Assembly (NCBI GenBank): GCA_947474395.1
Contig: CANJID010000043.1
Coordinates: 1 to 33,631, forward strand
DNA length: 33,631 nt
From: Caulobacterales bacterium
GTDB lineage: Bacteria > Pseudomonadota > Alphaproteobacteria > Caulobacterales > Caulobacteraceae
Direction of reading: 5' to 3'
In this document: piece by piece, positions 23,983 through 33,006 of the stretch
Layout of the letters: each line of letters begins with the position of its first letter
Position numbering within the stretch: position 1 is the first letter of the stretch
The notes under the pieces: generated by a model
Seen by the model: only the letters and a program-made list of their open reading frames with translations
Databases searched by the model: none
Told to the model about the DNA's origin: nothing
Program-made: the position numbers and the translations under genes

Positions 23983-24516
23983 ATGAGGATCGAGACGCCG
24001 CGCCTCGTGCTCCGCCCCTGGCTGGAAGCCGACCGGGACGCCTTCGCCGCCCTGCACGCCGATCCTGCCGTGATGTGGGATTACGGCGGCTCGCTGCCCC
24101 GCGATATGTGCGACCAGAAGTTCGATCGCTATCGCGCCGCCTTCGACGGGCATGGCTACGGCCGCTGGCTGGTCGAGACCCTCGCCGGTGAGGTCGTCGG
24201 CTACGTCGGCAATATGCCCAGCCGTCCCGACCACACCCTCGGCCCTCACGTCGACATCGGCTGGCGGCTGGCGCAGTCCGCCTGGGGACAGGGCTATGCG
24301 ACGGAGGCCGCCCGCGCCGCCCTGGACGACGCCTTCGGACGCTGCGGCCTGACGGAGGTCCTGGCCTATACGGCCCCCGACAACCTGCGGTCCCAGGCCG
24401 TGATGCAGCGGCTGGCCCTGCGCCGCGACGAGAGCCGCGACTACACCGGCCATGACGGGGTCAAAGTGCGGCGGACCTGGGTCTGGGTGGCGCAGCCAGG
24501 AGCGGCGCAGGCTTGA
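23983..24516 (+). CDS. GNAT acetyltransferase, RimJ/RimL type
   Basis: The 177-residue protein starts MRIETPRLVLRPWLEADRDA, the typical N-terminus of ribosomal-protein/aminoglycoside-type GNAT enzymes, and has DIGWRLAQSAWGQGYATEAA as the acetyl-CoA loop and AYTAPDNLRSQAVMQRLAL (NxxSxxVMxKLG-like). Substrate unknown. The start has a weak GAGAAGCA upstream. Its stop overlaps the TTG start of the Lgt-like gene (TTGA), so it may be the first gene of the operon that follows, though its role in it is unclear. Confidence 0.87.
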   Translation: MRIETPRLVLRPWLEADRDAFAALHADPAVMWDYGGSLPRDMCDQKFDRYRAAFDGHGYGRWLVETLAGEVVGYVGNMPSRPDHTLGPHVDIGWRLAQSAWGQGYATEAARAALDDAFGRCGLTEVLAYTAPDNLRSQAVMQRLALRRDESRDYTGHDGVKVRRTWVWVAQPGAAQA

Positions 24517-25241
24517 TCCACGTCCCCACCGCGCCCTGGGCCCACACGCTCTTCGACCTTTTCGCCTGGGGGTGCGGCATGGCCCTCGGCTGGGGGCTGT
24601 TCCGCTGGCGGTTGCAGGGGGCGACCGAGCGGCTGGCCGTGAAGGTGGGGCCGGGCTACTTCGCCGCCCTGGCGATCGGGGCGGCGACGGCGGCCTGGCT
24701 GGCGGGGTCGCTCAACACCCTGCAGGGCCCGGCCCCCGCCCTCTCCCACAGCGTCGTCGGGGCGCTGGCGGGCGCCATCGCCGGGGTGGAGATCTACAAG
24801 GCGATCAGGGGCGTGAAGGGCTCCACAGGCGGGGTCTTCGTCGGCCCCTTCGCCCTCGGCGTCGTCGTCGGCCGCTGGGGCTGCCTGTTCGCGGGCCTCG
24901 CCGACCGCACCTACGGGACGCCCACCACCCTGCCCTGGGGCGTCGATCTCGGGGACGGCGTCCCGCGCCATCCGGTGCAGGTCTATGAGTCCCTCGCCAT
25001 GGCCCTGTTCCTGGCAGTCTACCTCGCCGCCCTGGCCAAGCGCGCGCCCTGGGCCATGCGCCGCGCCTTCTACGCCCTGTGCCTCTGGTACGGGGCCCAG
25101 CGCTTCGTGTGGGAGTTCCTCAAGCCCTATCCTGCGGTTATGGGACCGTTTAACCTCTTCCACCTGATCGGGGTGGGGCTCGCAGGTTATGGATGGTTCT
25201 GCTTCGCCCGTGACCGGTCCAGGCAGCGGGCCGGAGCCTGA
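24513..25241 (+). CDS. Lgt-family (prolipoprotein diacylglyceryl transferase-like) membrane enzyme
   Basis: The 242-residue polytopic protein has the layout of Lgt: a His-bearing loop (LSHSVVGALAGAIAG, His79), the signature loop VVVGRWGCLFAGLADRTYG, and HPVQVYES (His153). Lgt moves a diacylglyceryl group from phosphatidylglycerol to lipoprotein cysteines. Here the arginine of the signature is kept (Arg121) but the asparagine of GRxGNF is replaced by Cys124, and the chain is shorter than the usual 270-300, so it is probably a paralogue and not the housekeeping Lgt. It starts at TTG 24513 overlapping the GNAT stop, and overlaps the radical SAM gene by up to 53 bp. Confidence 0.82.
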   Translation: MIHVPTAPWAHTLFDLFAWGCGMALGWGLFRWRLQGATERLAVKVGPGYFAALAIGAATAAWLAGSLNTLQGPAPALSHSVVGALAGAIAGVEIYKAIRGVKGSTGGVFVGPFALGVVVGRWGCLFAGLADRTYGTPTTLPWGVDLGDGVPRHPVQVYESLAMALFLAVYLAALAKRAPWAMRRAFYALCLWYGAQRFVWEFLKPYPAVMGPFNLFHLIGVGLAGYGWFCFARDRSRQRAGA

Positions 25242-26640
25242 GGCCCGCAAGGTCGCGCCCTACCTCTTCCTCGGCCAGACCACGAGCCTGTGCGAGACCT
25301 GCCTGGAGCTGGTCCCGGCCAAGGTCATCGCCGAGAACGGCAAGGTCTTCTACCTCAAGCGCTGCCGCGACCACGGGGTGCAGAAGACCCTGATCGCCGA
25401 CGACGTGGCCTACTGGAAGAGCCAGCGCGACTGGCTGAAGCCCGGCGACCGGCCGCTCGACGTCCACACCCGCACCGAGCACGGCTGCCCCTACGACTGC
25501 GGCCTCTGTCCCGACCACGAGCAGCACTCGTGCCTGGCCATCATCGAGGTCAACGAGGCCTGCAACCTCTCCTGCCCGGTCTGTTTCGCCGACAGCTCCA
25601 CCGCCCGCACAGGCCACCGCCCCCTGGCCGAGATCGAGCGCATGCTGGACGTGATCGTCGCCGCCGAGGGCGAGCCGGACCTGGTGCAGCTGTCGGGGGG
25701 CGAGCCCACCATCCACCCGCAGTTCTTCGAGATCCTGGACGCGGCGCGCGCCCGGCCGATCCGCCACCTGATGATCAACACCAACGGCCTGCGCATCGCC
25801 CGCGAGCCGGGCTTCGCCGAGCGCCTGGCCGACTACATGCCGGGCTTCGAGGTCTATCTGCAGTTCGATTCCCTGCGCCGCGACGCCCTGATGGCCCTGC
25901 GCGGCGCCGATCTGACCCGCGTGCGCATCGAGGCCCTGGAGGCGCTGGAGCGGGGAGGCGTCTCCACCACCCTGGTCGTCACGTGCAAAAAGGGGCTGAA
26001 CGACGACGAGATCCCGGAGATCGTCCGCTTCGCCCTGCAGTGGCGCTGCGTGCGGGGCGTGACGTTCCAGCCGATCCAGGACGCGGGCCGCAACGACGGC
26101 TTCGAGCCCAAGGACCACCGCATCGTCCTGACCGAGATCCGCCGCAGGATCGCCGAGGCCGGGGTCTTCGCCCTGGAGGACCTGATCCCCCTGCCCTGCA
26201 ATCCGGACCAGATCTGCATCGGATACGGCCTGAGGAACGGGACGGAGGTCATGCCGGTCACCGCCATGATGCCGCGCGAGCTGTTCGTGGCCGCCGTCCC
26301 CAACACCGTCACCTTCGAGGCCTATCCCGAATTGCAGCAGCGCGTGTTCGAGCTCCTCTCGCTCTCGACCGCCCAGGGCGATACCTCGGACAAGCTCGCG
26401 GCCCTGCTCTGCTGCCTGCCCGAGGCCGCCGTGCCGCAGGACCTCGGCTACGAGCACACCTTCCGCGTGGTGGTCTCCCAGTTCCTGGACCGCTTCAACT
26501 TCGACCTCGGCACGGTGAAGCGCTCCTGCGTCCACTTCGTGGAGCCGGACGGCCGCATCATCCCCTTCGACACCTACAACACCTTCTACCGGCCCGGCGC
26601 GGCGGGGGCGGCGGCGCTGGCGAGGGGGCGGGTGAGATGA
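25189..26640 (+). CDS. Radical SAM protein, COG1964/tetraether-lipid-synthase-like
   Basis: The 483-residue enzyme has the radical SAM cluster Cys125, Cys129, Cys132 (EACNLSCPVC) and SAM-binding LSGGEPTIHP. Extra cysteines lie before it (CETC at 35-38, Cys59, Cys100, Cys104, Cys107, Cys115) and after it (LPCNPDQIC, LLCCLPEA, RSCVHFVEPDGRIIPFDTYN), as in the COG1964 group that includes archaeal tetraether synthase Tes, which carries several auxiliary iron-sulfur clusters. Tes joins lipid tails by radical carbon-carbon coupling. Whether this bacterial member does that is not known; partner genes point to a lipid substrate. GTG 25210 is an alternative start. It overlaps both neighbours. Confidence 0.85.
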   Translation: MDGSASPVTGPGSGPEPEARKVAPYLFLGQTTSLCETCLELVPAKVIAENGKVFYLKRCRDHGVQKTLIADDVAYWKSQRDWLKPGDRPLDVHTRTEHGCPYDCGLCPDHEQHSCLAIIEVNEACNLSCPVCFADSSTARTGHRPLAEIERMLDVIVAAEGEPDLVQLSGGEPTIHPQFFEILDAARARPIRHLMINTNGLRIAREPGFAERLADYMPGFEVYLQFDSLRRDALMALRGADLTRVRIEALEALERGGVSTTLVVTCKKGLNDDEIPEIVRFALQWRCVRGVTFQPIQDAGRNDGFEPKDHRIVLTEIRRRIAEAGVFALEDLIPLPCNPDQICIGYGLRNGTEVMPVTAMMPRELFVAAVPNTVTFEAYPELQQRVFELLSLSTAQGDTSDKLAALLCCLPEAAVPQDLGYEHTFRVVVSQFLDRFNFDLGTVKRSCVHFVEPDGRIIPFDTYNTFYRPGAAGAAALARGRVR

Positions 26641-26906
26641 GTGAACCTGATCGGTCCACGGCGGTCGGCGCGGCCGTCCTGCGCTTCTTCGGCGCGGCCC
26701 TGATGGCGATCGGCGGCCTGATCGCCATCCTGTCTGGCCTTTGCACGGCGTGGGTCGGTTTGCAGTTTCTCACCGGCGACATGGCCGGAGGGAATTTCGG
26801 CCAGACGCTTGGTCTGGTGGCCGTCTTCGGCGGCATTCCCATAGCGGTCGGTGTCGGGCTCTATTTCCTCGGACGGTGGATCGGCCGAAAGGCAGAGCGC
26901 CCATGA
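26637..26906 (+). CDS. Small two-helix membrane protein, tandem copy 1
   Basis: The 89-residue product has a short polar head, helix RFFGAALMAIGGLIAILSGL followed by CTAW, a glycine-rich loop, a second helix (LGLVAVFGGIPIAVGVGLYF) and a basic tail. It starts in an ATGA overlap with the radical SAM stop and stops in an ATGA overlap with copy 2. The likeness to copy 2 (RFFG, LMAIGGL, SGLCT, two helices at the same spacing, equal length) shows tandem duplication. Function unknown; the tight coupling suggests a membrane subunit or anchor for the enzymes upstream. Confidence 0.8.
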   Translation: MSEPDRSTAVGAAVLRFFGAALMAIGGLIAILSGLCTAWVGLQFLTGDMAGGNFGQTLGLVAVFGGIPIAVGVGLYFLGRWIGRKAERP

Positions 26907-27172
26907 CCTCGTCAGAACCCCCCAAGCGCACGGGACGGGTTCTCGCCCGGTTCTTCGGCGGGCTCCTGATGGCGATCGGAGGATTGCTCGCCGTATCGAG
27001 CGGCCTCTGCACCCTGGCGTTTATCGGCGCATCCGCCTGGCCCAATTCCGGCATGGGGATGGCCATGGCCCCCATCGCCCTGCTGTTCGGGGCCGTTCCG
27101 ATGGCGACCGGCGCCGGGATATTCTTCGCCGGTCGGGCCGTCTACCGAGGCTGGCCCCACGTGAGGCCGTGA
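26903..27172 (+). CDS. Small two-helix membrane protein, tandem copy 2
   Basis: Also 89 residues, with helix RFFGGLLMAIGGLLAVSSGL followed by CTL, a Gly/Met-rich loop and a second helix (IALLFGAVPMATGAGIFF). It shares the pattern RFFGxxLMAIGGLxAxxSGLCT with copy 1 and overlaps it by 4 bp. It is the last gene of the operon; the convergent Nudix gene ends 5 bp away. Not recognised as a characterised family. Confidence 0.8.
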   Translation: MTSSEPPKRTGRVLARFFGGLLMAIGGLLAVSSGLCTLAFIGASAWPNSGMGMAMAPIALLFGAVPMATGAGIFFAGRAVYRGWPHVRP

Positions 27173-29533: not shown

Positions 29534-29806
29534 ATGTCCGATGTCGTGGACAACGCCGCCCGCGGGCGCTTCGAGCTGGTGGAGGAAGGCCTGACCGCCT
29601 TCGCCGACTATCGCCGCGAGGCGGGCCGGCTGGTCATCCCCTATGTGGAATCGCCCCCGCCGCTACGCGGCAAGGGCACGGCCGGTCGGCTGATGGAGGG
29701 CGTGCTCGCGGCCGCCCGCGCGGAGGGGCTGAAGGTCACGCCGATCTGCGGCTACGCGGTGGCCTACATCCGCCGGCACAAAGAGCACCACGACTTGTTG
29801 GCTTAG
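29534..29806 (+). CDS. Small GNAT-like acetyltransferase (YjdJ type)
   Basis: The 90-residue protein matches the short GNAT family with the core FADYRREAGRLVIPYVESPP, LRGKGTAGRLMEGVLAAARA and CGYAVAYIRRHKEHHDLL. The acetyl-CoA loop RGKGTAG is present, but the chain is far shorter than classical GNATs, as is normal for this family. ATG 29534 is chosen because GGAG lies 7-8 bases upstream; GTG 29531 is possible. Its end overlaps the end of the convergent autotransporter gene by 4 bp. Substrate unknown. Confidence 0.88.
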   Translation: MSDVVDNAARGRFELVEEGLTAFADYRREAGRLVIPYVESPPPLRGKGTAGRLMEGVLAAARAEGLKVTPICGYAVAYIRRHKEHHDLLA

Positions 29807-32800
29807 AATTTCATCCGAACGGTGGCGCGGACGTTGCCGCTGGCCACCTTCTTGCGCATCTGCGCGCCCGCCTCGAGCACCAGCCGCAGGTAGTCCGCGT
29901 CGGCCACCAGGGCGATGTTGGCGATCGGGCCGGACCCCGTCGCCGCATTGGGCTCAAGGGTGAAGGAGGAGCCACCGGCGAAGCGCACCACCGTGTCGCC
30001 GGCCTGGCCGGACGCCACCGTGCGGTAGCCGAACTCGATCTGCGGGCGCCACTTGACCTGGGAGCCGAAGGTCATGCCGGCGACGATGCTGGCGGTGGCG
30101 CTCAGGGCGCTGCCGTTGCGGTCATCGAAGGCGAGGTCGAAGGCCGCGTTGCCCGAGTTCTCGGTGTGGGCGTTCTCGTGCAGGCGGAAATAATCCGCGT
30201 GCGCCTGCGGCCGCAGGTAGAACCGGCCCTGCCGCATCTCATAGGCGACGCCGAAGCGGCCCTGCAGGCTGTAGCCGCCCCAGGAAGCCTTGTTGGCCCG
30301 GATCACGGTGTTCACGCCGGTCGTGGCGTCCGGGAGCATCAGCTGCCGCGTGCTCTTGAAGCTGGCGTAGCCGCCCGACCCGCTGGCGTCGAGGGTCAGG
30401 CCCTTCCACTGGCTGCGCCAGTAGAGGCCGGCCTGGAGCTGCGTCACCGCCAGGAGGTTGTTCCCCGGCAGGGTGTTGTCGTAGGTCCGCCCGGTGACAA
30501 AGGCCGCGGTCAGGCCCACCGAGCCGATGTTGGAATCCGCTTCCAGCCCGCCGACCAGGCCGAAGCCGGAGGAGCGGTAGGCCGAGGTGGCGCCCTTGGA
30601 ATCCTGCATGCCGTAGGCGATCTCGCTCGCCCACATGCCGCCGGCCTCCGCCGTGTCGGGCTCGCCCGCCGACTTGGCGATCGCCTCGGCCGCCATCTGG
30701 GCTGAGAAGAAGGCGGCGCCCGAATGCTCGGGCAGCAGCTGGTCGTAGATCGAGGCGAGGCCCGCGTAGTTCTGCTGGCTCAGCACCGCGGACTGCAGGG
30801 TCGTGTCGTTCGGCAGGGCCGCGTAGATGGCGTTGGCGGCGGCGGCCTCGGAGCGGTTCAGCCCCATCTCGGTCGCGGTCTTGCGGCGCAGGCCCAGGGT
30901 CACCGTGCCGGCGGCCGGCGTGACCGCCAGGGTCGCCTGGTAGAGGTAGGGGATGGCGGTGATGAGGTTGGCGCCGCCGGTCGAGGTCAGGTTCGGCGAG
31001 GAGATGATGGTGTAGCTCTGGGGTCCCTGCAGCAGGGACTTCAGCGCCACGCCGAACTGGGCCCCATTGCCGATGCTGACGGGGCCTGTTGCCGAGTAGC
31101 GGGTCGCCACGTTGTTGGCCGGGTCGGCGGTGATGATCAGGGTCGAGGCGGCCCCGAGGGTCAGGGTGCTCAGCCCCAGGGTCGCCGTCGAGGTGTTCTG
31201 CAGCACGCCGTTGTTGACGTTGATGCTCAGCGGGCCGGCGCCGTGCGCCAGGGTCCCGATGAAGGTCGCGGCGTTGTCGATCAGGAAGCTGGAGGCGGCG
31301 GTCCCGGAGCCGAAGTTCAGGTTCCCGGCGATGGTCCCCGCCAGGAGCTGCACCGAGTTGGGCCCGGAGCCCAGCAGGATGTCGCCGGAGATGGTCGGGG
31401 TGACGGCGGTGATGGTCGCGACGGCGGTGTCGACCGCGCCGGAGACCGAGCCGTAGGTCAGGTTCGGGCTCGGGTTGGTCTGCTGCACGAAGCTGACGCC
31501 CGTGGTGTTGGCGCGCAGGTCGAGGGCGATGGTCGAGCCGCCCGGGGTCGCGGCGGTCACCGGCGTGAGGCCGGTGACGATGTTGCCTTGGTTGACGACG
31601 GTGGTCAGGGTCCCGGAGCGGTCGACCACGGCGACCGCGTTGGCGGTGTCGCCGACGGCGGCCGCGGTGATGCCCCCGGTCAGGGTCAGGTTGTTGACCG
31701 TCGAGCCCGCGTCGATGGCCAGGCCGTAGGCGGTCACGGCGCTGGTCGAGGCCAGCACCTGACCGGACAGGCTGCCGTCGATGCGCACCTGCGGGACCAC
31801 GCTGTTGCCGGTGATGTACATCGCCGTGGCGTTGGCGCTGTAGGCCGAGGCGGCGACCGAGCCGAAGATGCTCGCCCCGCCGGCCAGGATCGCCTTGCCG
31901 CCCGGCAGGCCGATCTGGATGCCGGTGCTGCTGAAGGTGTCGTACTGGCCGTTGGCGTTGATGCTGCCGCGCATCATCAGGCCGTAGGCGTTGCTGCCCG
32001 TGCCGAAGGCGCCGATGTTTATGGTCTGGCCCGCCGCGCCGATCAGCAGGGCGGGGGCGCTGCCGATGCTGGTGAGCTGGCCGGTGGTCTCGGATCCGTC
32101 CGCGGCGCCGTCGCCGTCGACGTCCGCGATGCTGCCGCTGACCGTGCCGAGCGGCGGGGCGGAGACATAGATCCCCCCGCCCACATTGGCGGCGATCACG
32201 GCGGCCGCGCCGCCCTGCTGCACGTCCTGCGGGGTGGCCTGGATCAGCGCCAGGGCCGTGGCGACCTGGGGCCGGACGTTGGTGCTGTAGCCGGTGGTGG
32301 CCACGGAGGAGAGGATGCTGACCCGCCCGGTGACGGGGGCGGTCACCGACAGGCCGACGGAATTGGAGCCGACCACCGAGACCGCGCCGGTGAGCTGGAC
32401 GTTGCCGGCGACCGGGCCGGCGATGTTCACCGCCGCGCCGTTGTCGCCCTGCAGGGTCACGCCGGCGATGCTGATCGACCCGGTCAGGGGGGCCTCGATC
32501 GACAGGCCGTAGGAGTTGTTGCCCTTGACCGAGATCGAGCCGCCGCTGGTGATATTGCCGGTAAAGGTCCCGGGGCCGGTGAGGCGGATGGCGAATCGCC
32601 CGGCGCCGGCGGCGAAGGGCGCCTCGACGATGCCGTCGGCGTTGATCGTGTCGGTCGGGGCGTAGGTCTCGTTGAAGGTGATGGTGCTGCTGGTGGCGCC
32701 CAGATAGCTGCCGGTGTTGCCGCCGAGGATCAGCACGCCCACCGAGCCGTTCACGTCCGTGGTCGTGATCGCGCCGTTCTGGGTGACGGTGTTGTTGCTG

Positions 32801-33006
32801 TTGAGCGTGATCGCCGGCCCCGCCGCGGGCAGGGTGATCGAGCCGGCGGTATCCAGGAGCAAATTGTCGGGGGCGCCGTTGGTCGCGGTGGCGGTGGCCA
32901 CCGGCGCGGTCGTCGCCGTGTTGATGGTCGCAGCCGAGGCCGCATCGCCAAGAGCCAGGGCGCACAGCGGCGCCAAAGCCGCCGAGAGGGTCAAGCTCTT
33001 AGACAT
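29803..33006 (-). CDS. Autotransporter (type Va) outer-membrane protein
   Basis: The 1067-residue protein has a signal peptide (MSKSLTLSAALAPLCALALG, cleavage after ASA near residue 25), a long Gly/Ala/Thr/Asn-rich beta-helix passenger up to about residue 780, and a beta-barrel of about 270 residues ending in the outer-membrane signature VRATVRMKF with terminal Phe. The passenger has repeats of the type NSYGLSIEAPLTGSISI / NSVGLSVTAPVTGRVSI. Residues 295-306 form the EF-hand-like loop DVDGDGAADGSE (32089-32124). No protease triad is evident, so it may be an adhesin or surface-structure protein; the cargo function is unknown. Confidence 0.92.
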   Translation of the reverse strand: MSKSLTLSAALAPLCALALGDAASAATINTATTAPVATATATNGAPDNLLLDTAGSITLPAAGPAITLNSNNTVTQNGAITTTDVNGSVGVLILGGNTGSYLGATSSTITFNETYAPTDTINADGIVEAPFAAGAGRFAIRLTGPGTFTGNITSGGSISVKGNNSYGLSIEAPLTGSISIAGVTLQGDNGAAVNIAGPVAGNVQLTGAVSVVGSNSVGLSVTAPVTGRVSILSSVATTGYSTNVRPQVATALALIQATPQDVQQGGAAAVIAANVGGGIYVSAPPLGTVSGSIADVDGDGAADGSETTGQLTSIGSAPALLIGAAGQTINIGAFGTGSNAYGLMMRGSINANGQYDTFSSTGIQIGLPGGKAILAGGASIFGSVAASAYSANATAMYITGNSVVPQVRIDGSLSGQVLASTSAVTAYGLAIDAGSTVNNLTLTGGITAAAVGDTANAVAVVDRSGTLTTVVNQGNIVTGLTPVTAATPGGSTIALDLRANTTGVSFVQQTNPSPNLTYGSVSGAVDTAVATITAVTPTISGDILLGSGPNSVQLLAGTIAGNLNFGSGTAASSFLIDNAATFIGTLAHGAGPLSINVNNGVLQNTSTATLGLSTLTLGAASTLIITADPANNVATRYSATGPVSIGNGAQFGVALKSLLQGPQSYTIISSPNLTSTGGANLITAIPYLYQATLAVTPAAGTVTLGLRRKTATEMGLNRSEAAAANAIYAALPNDTTLQSAVLSQQNYAGLASIYDQLLPEHSGAAFFSAQMAAEAIAKSAGEPDTAEAGGMWASEIAYGMQDSKGATSAYRSSGFGLVGGLEADSNIGSVGLTAAFVTGRTYDNTLPGNNLLAVTQLQAGLYWRSQWKGLTLDASGSGGYASFKSTRQLMLPDATTGVNTVIRANKASWGGYSLQGRFGVAYEMRQGRFYLRPQAHADYFRLHENAHTENSGNAAFDLAFDDRNGSALSATASIVAGMTFGSQVKWRPQIEFGYRTVASGQAGDTVVRFAGGSSFTLEPNAATGSGPIANIALVADADYLRLVLEAGAQMRKKVASGNVRATVRMKF

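Follow-up and report, generated by a model that had tools for sequence, protein, structure and literature searches.

The locus

The subject of this report is a cluster of four overlapping genes in a stretch of 33,631 nucleotides, hereafter the window, from contig CANJID010000043.1 of a Caulobacterales bacterium (GenBank assembly GCA_947474395.1). In order, the genes encode a relative of the diacylglyceryl transferase Lgt (gene 1), a radical S-adenosylmethionine (SAM) protein of the superfamily to which tetraether synthase (Tes) and TrsS belong (gene 2), and two small membrane proteins, S1 and S2 (genes 3 and 4; Table 1). A sequence-only reading of this DNA had described four genes overlapping by 4 to 53 bp at 24513-27172, and all four open reading frames (ORFs) are indeed there, with overlaps from gene 1 to gene 4 of 53, 4 and 4 bp; for gene 1, a start at TTG agrees with the starts of its close relatives. 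Between 23700 and 27400 no promoter-like site was found, and the single terminator-like site did not rise above the expectation from shuffled sequence. A separate housekeeping lgt, which that reading had asked to be confirmed, does exist: the source genome, 3.58 Mb in size, has a further Lgt with a full score on a different contig, so that gene 1 is not the housekeeping lgt. The closest named loci to carry the pair of enzyme genes are those of Caulobacter and Phenylobacterium.

Table 1. Genes of the cluster and the adjoining acetyltransferase gene, in window positions
Gene or product	Position	Strand	Basis and remarks
Lgt-like diacylglyceryl transferase (gene 1, TTG start)	24513..25241	+	PF01790 over cut-off; 5azb fold match; R143/R239/Y235 equivalents kept, H103 lost
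Radical SAM protein, Tes/TrsS superfamily, own clade (gene 2)	25189..26640	+	PF04055 and HMPTM zinc-ribbon model over cut-off; 7tom match; tree; ligand table
S1, small two-helix membrane protein (gene 3)	26637..26906	+	Family alignment A3; invariant Cys36 codon 26742-26744
S2, tandem homologue of S1 (gene 4)	26903..27172	+	Family alignment A3; invariant Cys36 codon 27008-27010
GNAT acetyltransferase	23983..24516	+	PF13302 over cut-off; 4-bp overlap with the Lgt-like gene; probably outside the system

Co-inheritance of the two enzymes

By their distribution and order, the Lgt-like and radical SAM genes are shown to form one inherited unit across several bacterial phyla and the marine group II archaea. 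Among 149 genomes of the family, the radical SAM gene is found in 24 and the Lgt-like gene in 24, with both in 23 and either in 25 (Fisher p 9e-25), an Lgt-like gene being called in these genomes at about 200 bits or more, where ordinary Lgts reach 76 bits or less. The one genome with the radical SAM gene only (G107; loci L026 and L027) has a broken version of it in a decaying copy of the operon, and in the one with the Lgt-like gene only (G119; L263) the Lgt-like and S profiles match just in part and a radical SAM gene is missing, as is consistent with a decayed locus. A survey of genome contigs found an Lgt-like ORF at 78 of 80 loci, the remaining two being cut by the end of a contig. The pair occurs in culturable bacteria, including Sphingomonas, Novosphingobium, Paenibacillus and Bradyrhizobium; among the carriers are Novosphingobium nitrogenifigens DSM 19370 (L057) and Caulobacter isolates (L031, L032 and L034).

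The association extends well beyond the Caulobacterales. Within the Acidobacteriota the Lgt-like gene lies at most 1.5 kb away in 11 of 12 hits to the radical SAM subfamily (one fragmentary) and 2.5 kb upstream in the twelfth; in the family to which Paenibacillus flagellatus (L092) belongs it accompanies the radical SAM gene in 16 of 16 hits. The marine group II order has the subfamily in 13 of 193 genomes, with an Lgt-like neighbour in 12 of the 13 hits and a contig end cutting the other. In the phylum of locus L105 (Myxococcota by NCBI name) the two genes are adjacent in only 3 of 10 hits; an Lgt-like gene of at least 138 bits is present in eight of nine genomes, sometimes on another contig, and the ninth gives 64 bits. 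Next to Tes, TrsS and other relatives an Lgt-like gene appears at 1 of 79 loci, that of the sister lineage L235, after exclusion of four cut or broken subfamily copies from 83 loci. At L255, from the same genome as L235 (G789), a distant Lgt-like gene lies 1.1 kb from the radical SAM gene.

The identity matrices of the two proteins across 36 loci correlate with r 0.92, a value as high in none of 2000 permutations. One genus of the Caulobacteraceae has a radical SAM protein just 51-53% identical to that of the window, and there both genes find their nearest kin outside the Alphaproteobacteria, so that the pair seems to travel together. The co-occurrence with Lgt relatives on which the sequence-only reading had built its idea of a joint system is thus conserved across bacterial phyla and archaea, which makes the arrangement more than chance.

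The Lgt-like enzyme

Gene 1 had been taken for an Lgt relative, and both family and fold bear this out. It scores 62.8 bits against Pfam LGT (PF01790; cut-off 24.9), and its predicted structure (mean predicted local distance difference test score, pLDDT, 95.7) superposes on the E. coli Lgt structure that contains phosphatidylglycerol (5azb) with Z 13.4 and a root-mean-square deviation of 4.1 over 219 residues, the runner-up having Z 4.9. It lies below the NCBIfam equivalog cut-offs for lgt (23.1 bits with TIGR00544, cut-off 118.9, and far below in two further models), and its product is 19% identical to the housekeeping Lgt of the source genome. Foldseek alone gave no PDB match for the model at E 0.001, 5azb being supplied by a second aligner, and phmmer with the single sequence found no Lgt structure. 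A profile of the Lgt-like proteins (A1) did retrieve the Lgt structure; one of its 37 rows is the housekeeping Lgt, and the independent evidence is that from Pfam and the fold match.

Passages of the Lgt crystal structure paper (PMC4728403) describe R143 and R239 as activating the lipid C3-O bond, propose the HGGL motif with H103 as the acceptor site, and place the opening of the cavity on the outer side of the membrane. Gene 1 and its relatives (44 rows, L284 being left out as it gave no hit) have in common with Lgt the fold, the equivalents of R143, R239 and Y235 (44/44), mostly that of E202 (41/44), and Glu or Asp at the position of E243 (43/44). They differ from it by their linkage to a radical SAM gene, a new E93/K96 combination (43/44), Cys at the position of N146 (44/44) and the loss of the acceptor His at H103, which none of the 44 retains as against 8 of the 13 top-scoring PF01790 rows. 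This pattern suggests a donor site that has been kept and an acceptor site that has been changed. The sequence-only reading had pointed to Cys in place of a signature Asn as a sign of another acceptor. The replacement is real, and it is not diagnostic of the system because other PF01790 proteins have the same Cys (5 of the 13 top scorers and 5 of 7 other paralogues). Another acceptor is still probable; its basis moves from the Asn-to-Cys exchange to the missing His.

In the best tree of Lgt proteins the Lgt-like rows do not form one clade (2 changes), and a single clade is not rejected (approximately unbiased test, p 0.236); the rows treated there as canonical are merely the top PF01790 scorers and, 5 of the 13 having Cys at N146, probably include some paralogues. 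Two genomes, G157 and G158, give seven PF01790 matches each, some possibly fragments of a single gene.

The radical SAM protein

The best NCBIfam models for gene 2 are TrsS (NF045646; 299.5 bits, cut-off 490), to which it aligns over nearly its full length, and Tes (NF045702; 263.9 bits, cut-off 450), with both scores below the cut-off. Searched against structures at E 1e-10, its profile retrieved tetraether synthase alone (7tol), and the predicted model, whose mean pLDDT is 79.9 and which is weak at residues 1-13, 106-113, 134-137, 370-373 and 391-414, matches Tes (GDGT-MAS, 7tom) with Z 36.9 over 412 residues, as against 18.8 for MoaA and 18.6 for SuiB. With the metal and active sites of Tes placed according to passages of PMC9433317, the rubredoxin motif and the ligands of the N-terminal and radical SAM clusters are invariant or nearly so in the subfamily alignment (A2). 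A further comparison of these motifs, which left out ten broken, cut or duplicate loci (L002, L003, L018, L025, L026, L027, L076, L087, L091 and L093), showed Cys in place of H62 in the archaeal rows listed. In gene 2, then, the Tes fold is present together with three of the four Tes metal sites.

The C-terminal site is where the subfamily departs from Tes. Across its 38 rows the conserved cysteines are C447 (38/38), C337 and C409 (37/38 each) and C408 (36/38), and equivalents of Tes C455, C470 and Tyr459 are found in none, as against 11 of 11 Tes rows for each; C455 and C470 equivalents are likewise present in 11 of 11 TrsS rows. At the position of Met439, a residue that Tes conserves fully, 22 of the 38 rows have Met and the window protein has Ser; the Tes variant M439A is described as still active in the passages of PMC9433317 cited above. 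In a tree of 80 proteins the 38 subfamily rows make up one clade (100/99), with Tes (100/100) and TrsS (100/99) separate from it, and the archaeal rows nest within bacteria, which suggests transfer. By tree and alignment, gene 2 belongs to a clade of its own that excludes Tes and TrsS, and its set of C-terminal cysteines is remodelled. The tie to Tes drawn from the sequence alone survives as a likeness of fold and not as an identity with Tes itself. TrsS, the best NCBIfam match, stands apart in the same way by clade and by its C455 and C470, and no Lgt-like neighbour was seen beside it. In a set of control genomes, the TrsS model responded to three archaea alone. Among frames of the Tes/TrsS type, those at L235/L255 (G789), G792:C121, G776:C101 and G718:C11 have one in-frame TGA and are possible selenoproteins.

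Small membrane proteins beside the pair

S1 and S2, of 89 residues each, are homologous two-helix membrane proteins with no family match over cut-off in Pfam or NCBIfam. In their family alignment (A3) one Cys is invariant in all 63 copies, and 62 of these have Gly at -2. This Cys follows an N-in hydrophobic helix; a charge count, made on S1 and S2 alone, predicts that both termini of each protein face inward and that helix 1 has Cys36 at its outer end. Of the 149 family genomes 21 have the S family, 18 of them together with the radical SAM gene (Fisher p 2e-15), and no S match was found in 6 of the 24 radical SAM genomes. The three S genomes that have no radical SAM gene are the decayed G119 and two with intact orphans, L264 and L265, which, aligned by eye, have no Cys at the corresponding position. 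At L256 (G258, Myxococcota-type) an Lgt-like gene on a different contig from the radical SAM gene has, at a distance of about 145 bp, a diverged member of the S family with ...AAPGAC.

In other lineages most of the small proteins escaped the clustering of neighbouring ORFs, their types being too diverse for BLAST, and were found by a hydrophobicity scan (L003-L021, as duplicates of the family search, and L002, L018, L026, L027 and L093 were left out). It revealed small membrane genes directly 3' of the radical SAM gene in further lineages, frequently with a 4-bp overlap. A Cys is present in 17 of 17 proteins of a Reyranella type (...LTLGC...), in 18 of 18 of a Bacillota/Acidobacteriota type (FLLNAAC) and in 6 of 6 of a Rhizobiales type, and in some marine archaea the corresponding gene encodes an EF-hand protein ending in LFGFC. 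Types 2 and 3 are probably homologous to S1 and S2 (hhalign probability 92.2 and 95.5), and type 4 is not detectably so (4.3). Just past the small proteins at loci of the Reyranella type (L068, L073, L078, L079) is an ORF that looks rhomboid-like by eye, its cluster spanning 13 loci.

With subfamily loci clustered at 90%, 82 were assessable and were compared with 61 control loci of the Tes/TrsS type. A small membrane gene begins -40 to 300 bp after the radical SAM gene at 54 of the 82 and at 0 of the 61, and in 53 of the 54 it has a Cys near a helix end. Looser limits give 62 of 82 (60 with Cys) and 4 of 61 (3 with Cys), the four control ORFs looking like chance frames; among the 60, L098 rests on a doubtful frame, and the gap between its enzyme genes holds better candidates. 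At L226, L228, L096 and L098 the two enzymes stand apart and the gap is filled by tandem small membrane proteins, with a Cys motif of the same kind in both gap proteins at the first three loci and in two of four at L098. When L096, L226, L228 and L100 are added by eye, 64 of the 82 loci have a small Cys protein. By gene content and order, the Lgt-like enzyme, the Tes-superfamily protein and, in most lineages, small Cys-bearing membrane proteins are thus shown to constitute one inherited unit. The earlier suggestion that the two 89-residue proteins simply anchor the complex gives way here: with an invariant Cys and similar partners in most lineages, they look more like Cys acceptors.

Other genes of the window

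The acetyltransferase gene upstream was considered as a partner and dropped, a GNAT neighbour recurring in only two loci in the clustering of neighbouring ORFs. On the minus strand at 29803-33006 of the window is an ORF of 1067 amino acids that resembles, by eye, an autotransporter-type surface protein.

What the system may do

The arrangement that we tentatively favour, at somewhat short of an even chance, is a three-part membrane system in which a lipid is placed on the Cys of the small protein and is altered or cross-linked by the radical enzyme. From the outer side of the membrane, the Lgt-like enzyme would bind phosphatidylglycerol, or perhaps, in the archaea, the equivalent lipid there, and it would move the diacylglyceryl group of this lipid onto the invariant Cys (Cys36 in S1 and S2) near the outer end of the helix, after which the small protein would remain uncleaved. 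In a weaker step of the proposal, a lipid tail, either already attached or still to be attached, would lose a hydrogen to the radical SAM enzyme, working on the inner side, and the enzyme would couple or modify that tail in the manner of Tes; the small protein would end up carrying a modified or membrane-crossing lipid. We infer the acceptor role of the small proteins from the conservation of the Cys, from topology and from the two orphan homologues, and it is because Cys36 would lie on the outer side, where the Lgt cavity opens, that this residue is proposed as the acceptor of the Lgt-like enzyme. The radical step on a lipid is suggested, less strongly, by homology to Tes.

Several observations weigh against this proposal. 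Some of the small-protein types are unrelated to others by sequence, and at 18 of the 82 representative loci, which include several Acidobacteriota, most of the Myxococcota type and some marine archaea, no small Cys protein turned up close to the pair. The test of Cys location near a helix end is permissive (90 of 101 observed, 59.7 expected), so that the argument rests on Cys invariance, and the rows in which the Cys is invariant are related to one another. The usual lipobox has the pattern [LVI][ASTVI][GAS]C, and the context of the Cys in A3, with Leu at -1 in 46 of 63, is not a canonical one. The orphans number only two, one of which (L265) contains Cys elsewhere. The cluster site at the C terminus of the radical SAM subfamily also differs from that of Tes.

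One alternative is that the pair makes or edits free membrane lipids, for example tail-to-tail coupled ones, and that the small proteins merely anchor or organise a soluble radical SAM enzyme. The Tes fold with most of its metal sites, the donor-site residues retained by the Lgt-like enzyme and the loci at which small proteins were not found near the pair would all sit well with such a function, which leaves unexplained the Cys that is invariant in each of four sets (63/63, 17/17, 18/18 and 6/6) and the orphans that are devoid of it; the Tyr459, C455 and C470 of Tes, moreover, have no equivalents in any of the 38 rows. We regard this alternative as unlikely, if a serious contender. Less probable again is the modification of a peptide, in which the radical SAM enzyme would cross-link the small protein, or form a thioether in it, at or near the Cys, and the Lgt-like protein would add a lipid or only hold the substrate. 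Small, fast-evolving and often tandem proteins with a fixed Cys do adjoin the radical SAM gene, as in peptide natural products, but the fold is far closer to the lipid-acting Tes than to the peptide-acting SuiB, and the Cys of S1 and S2 is by charge count outside, away from a cytosolic enzyme.

It is also conceivable, if a little more improbable still, that the Lgt-like protein serves some lipobox proteins as a plain additional Lgt, connected to the radical SAM gene only indirectly or through regulation. The fold and the catalytic Arg residues are those of an Lgt, and in marine group II archaea (L104, L106, L107 and L266) the Lgt-like gene is the sole PF01790 match found in three genomes, G159, G161 and G162, with a lipobox-like ORF (...FSTISAGC) nearby at L266:5658-6293 on the minus strand; these archaea may use the enzyme for lipoproteins. 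Against an ordinary second Lgt stand the loss of the proposed acceptor-site His from every one of the 44 relatives, the presence of a housekeeping Lgt and the strict parallel between gain and loss of this gene and those of the radical SAM gene. That the genes are neighbours with no functional link is scarcely credible given their co-inheritance in 149 genomes and their adjacency across phyla.

Relation to earlier work and significance

The radical SAM clade may have been met before under another name. In the passages available, Zeng et al. (2022; PMC8941075) count 456 Tes homologues in bacteria when a loose threshold is applied and, among 231 marine group II metagenome-assembled genomes, a single homologue of 28% identity, and they propose bacterial Tes homologues for branched tetraethers; a diacylglyceryl transferase or small membrane partner is not mentioned in those passages. 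Our clade may lie among these broad bacterial homologues while not being Tes, and the one marine group II homologue may belong to it as well. In the open-licence literature, no description of the trio of Lgt-like enzyme, radical SAM protein and small proteins was found. The lipids of marine group II archaea are debated.

In its fullest form, the three-part lipidation system described above would be a new kind of protein lipidation, in which Lgt chemistry acts on a transmembrane Cys outside any lipobox and radical C-H chemistry welds or sulfurises the attached tail, possibly yielding a protein-borne membrane-spanning lipid in bacteria of many phyla and in marine archaea; we think this doubtful as a whole, though a real prospect. 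We know of no earlier system in which diacylglyceryl transfer of the lipoprotein type is joined to lipid chemistry by a radical SAM enzyme, and this one, if the proposal is true, would be the first. A concrete candidate acceptor is offered in the single Cys of an 89-residue protein. The clade also cautions that the bacterial and marine archaeal 'Tes homologues' are not all makers of tetraethers, a point that bears on tetraether climate proxies.

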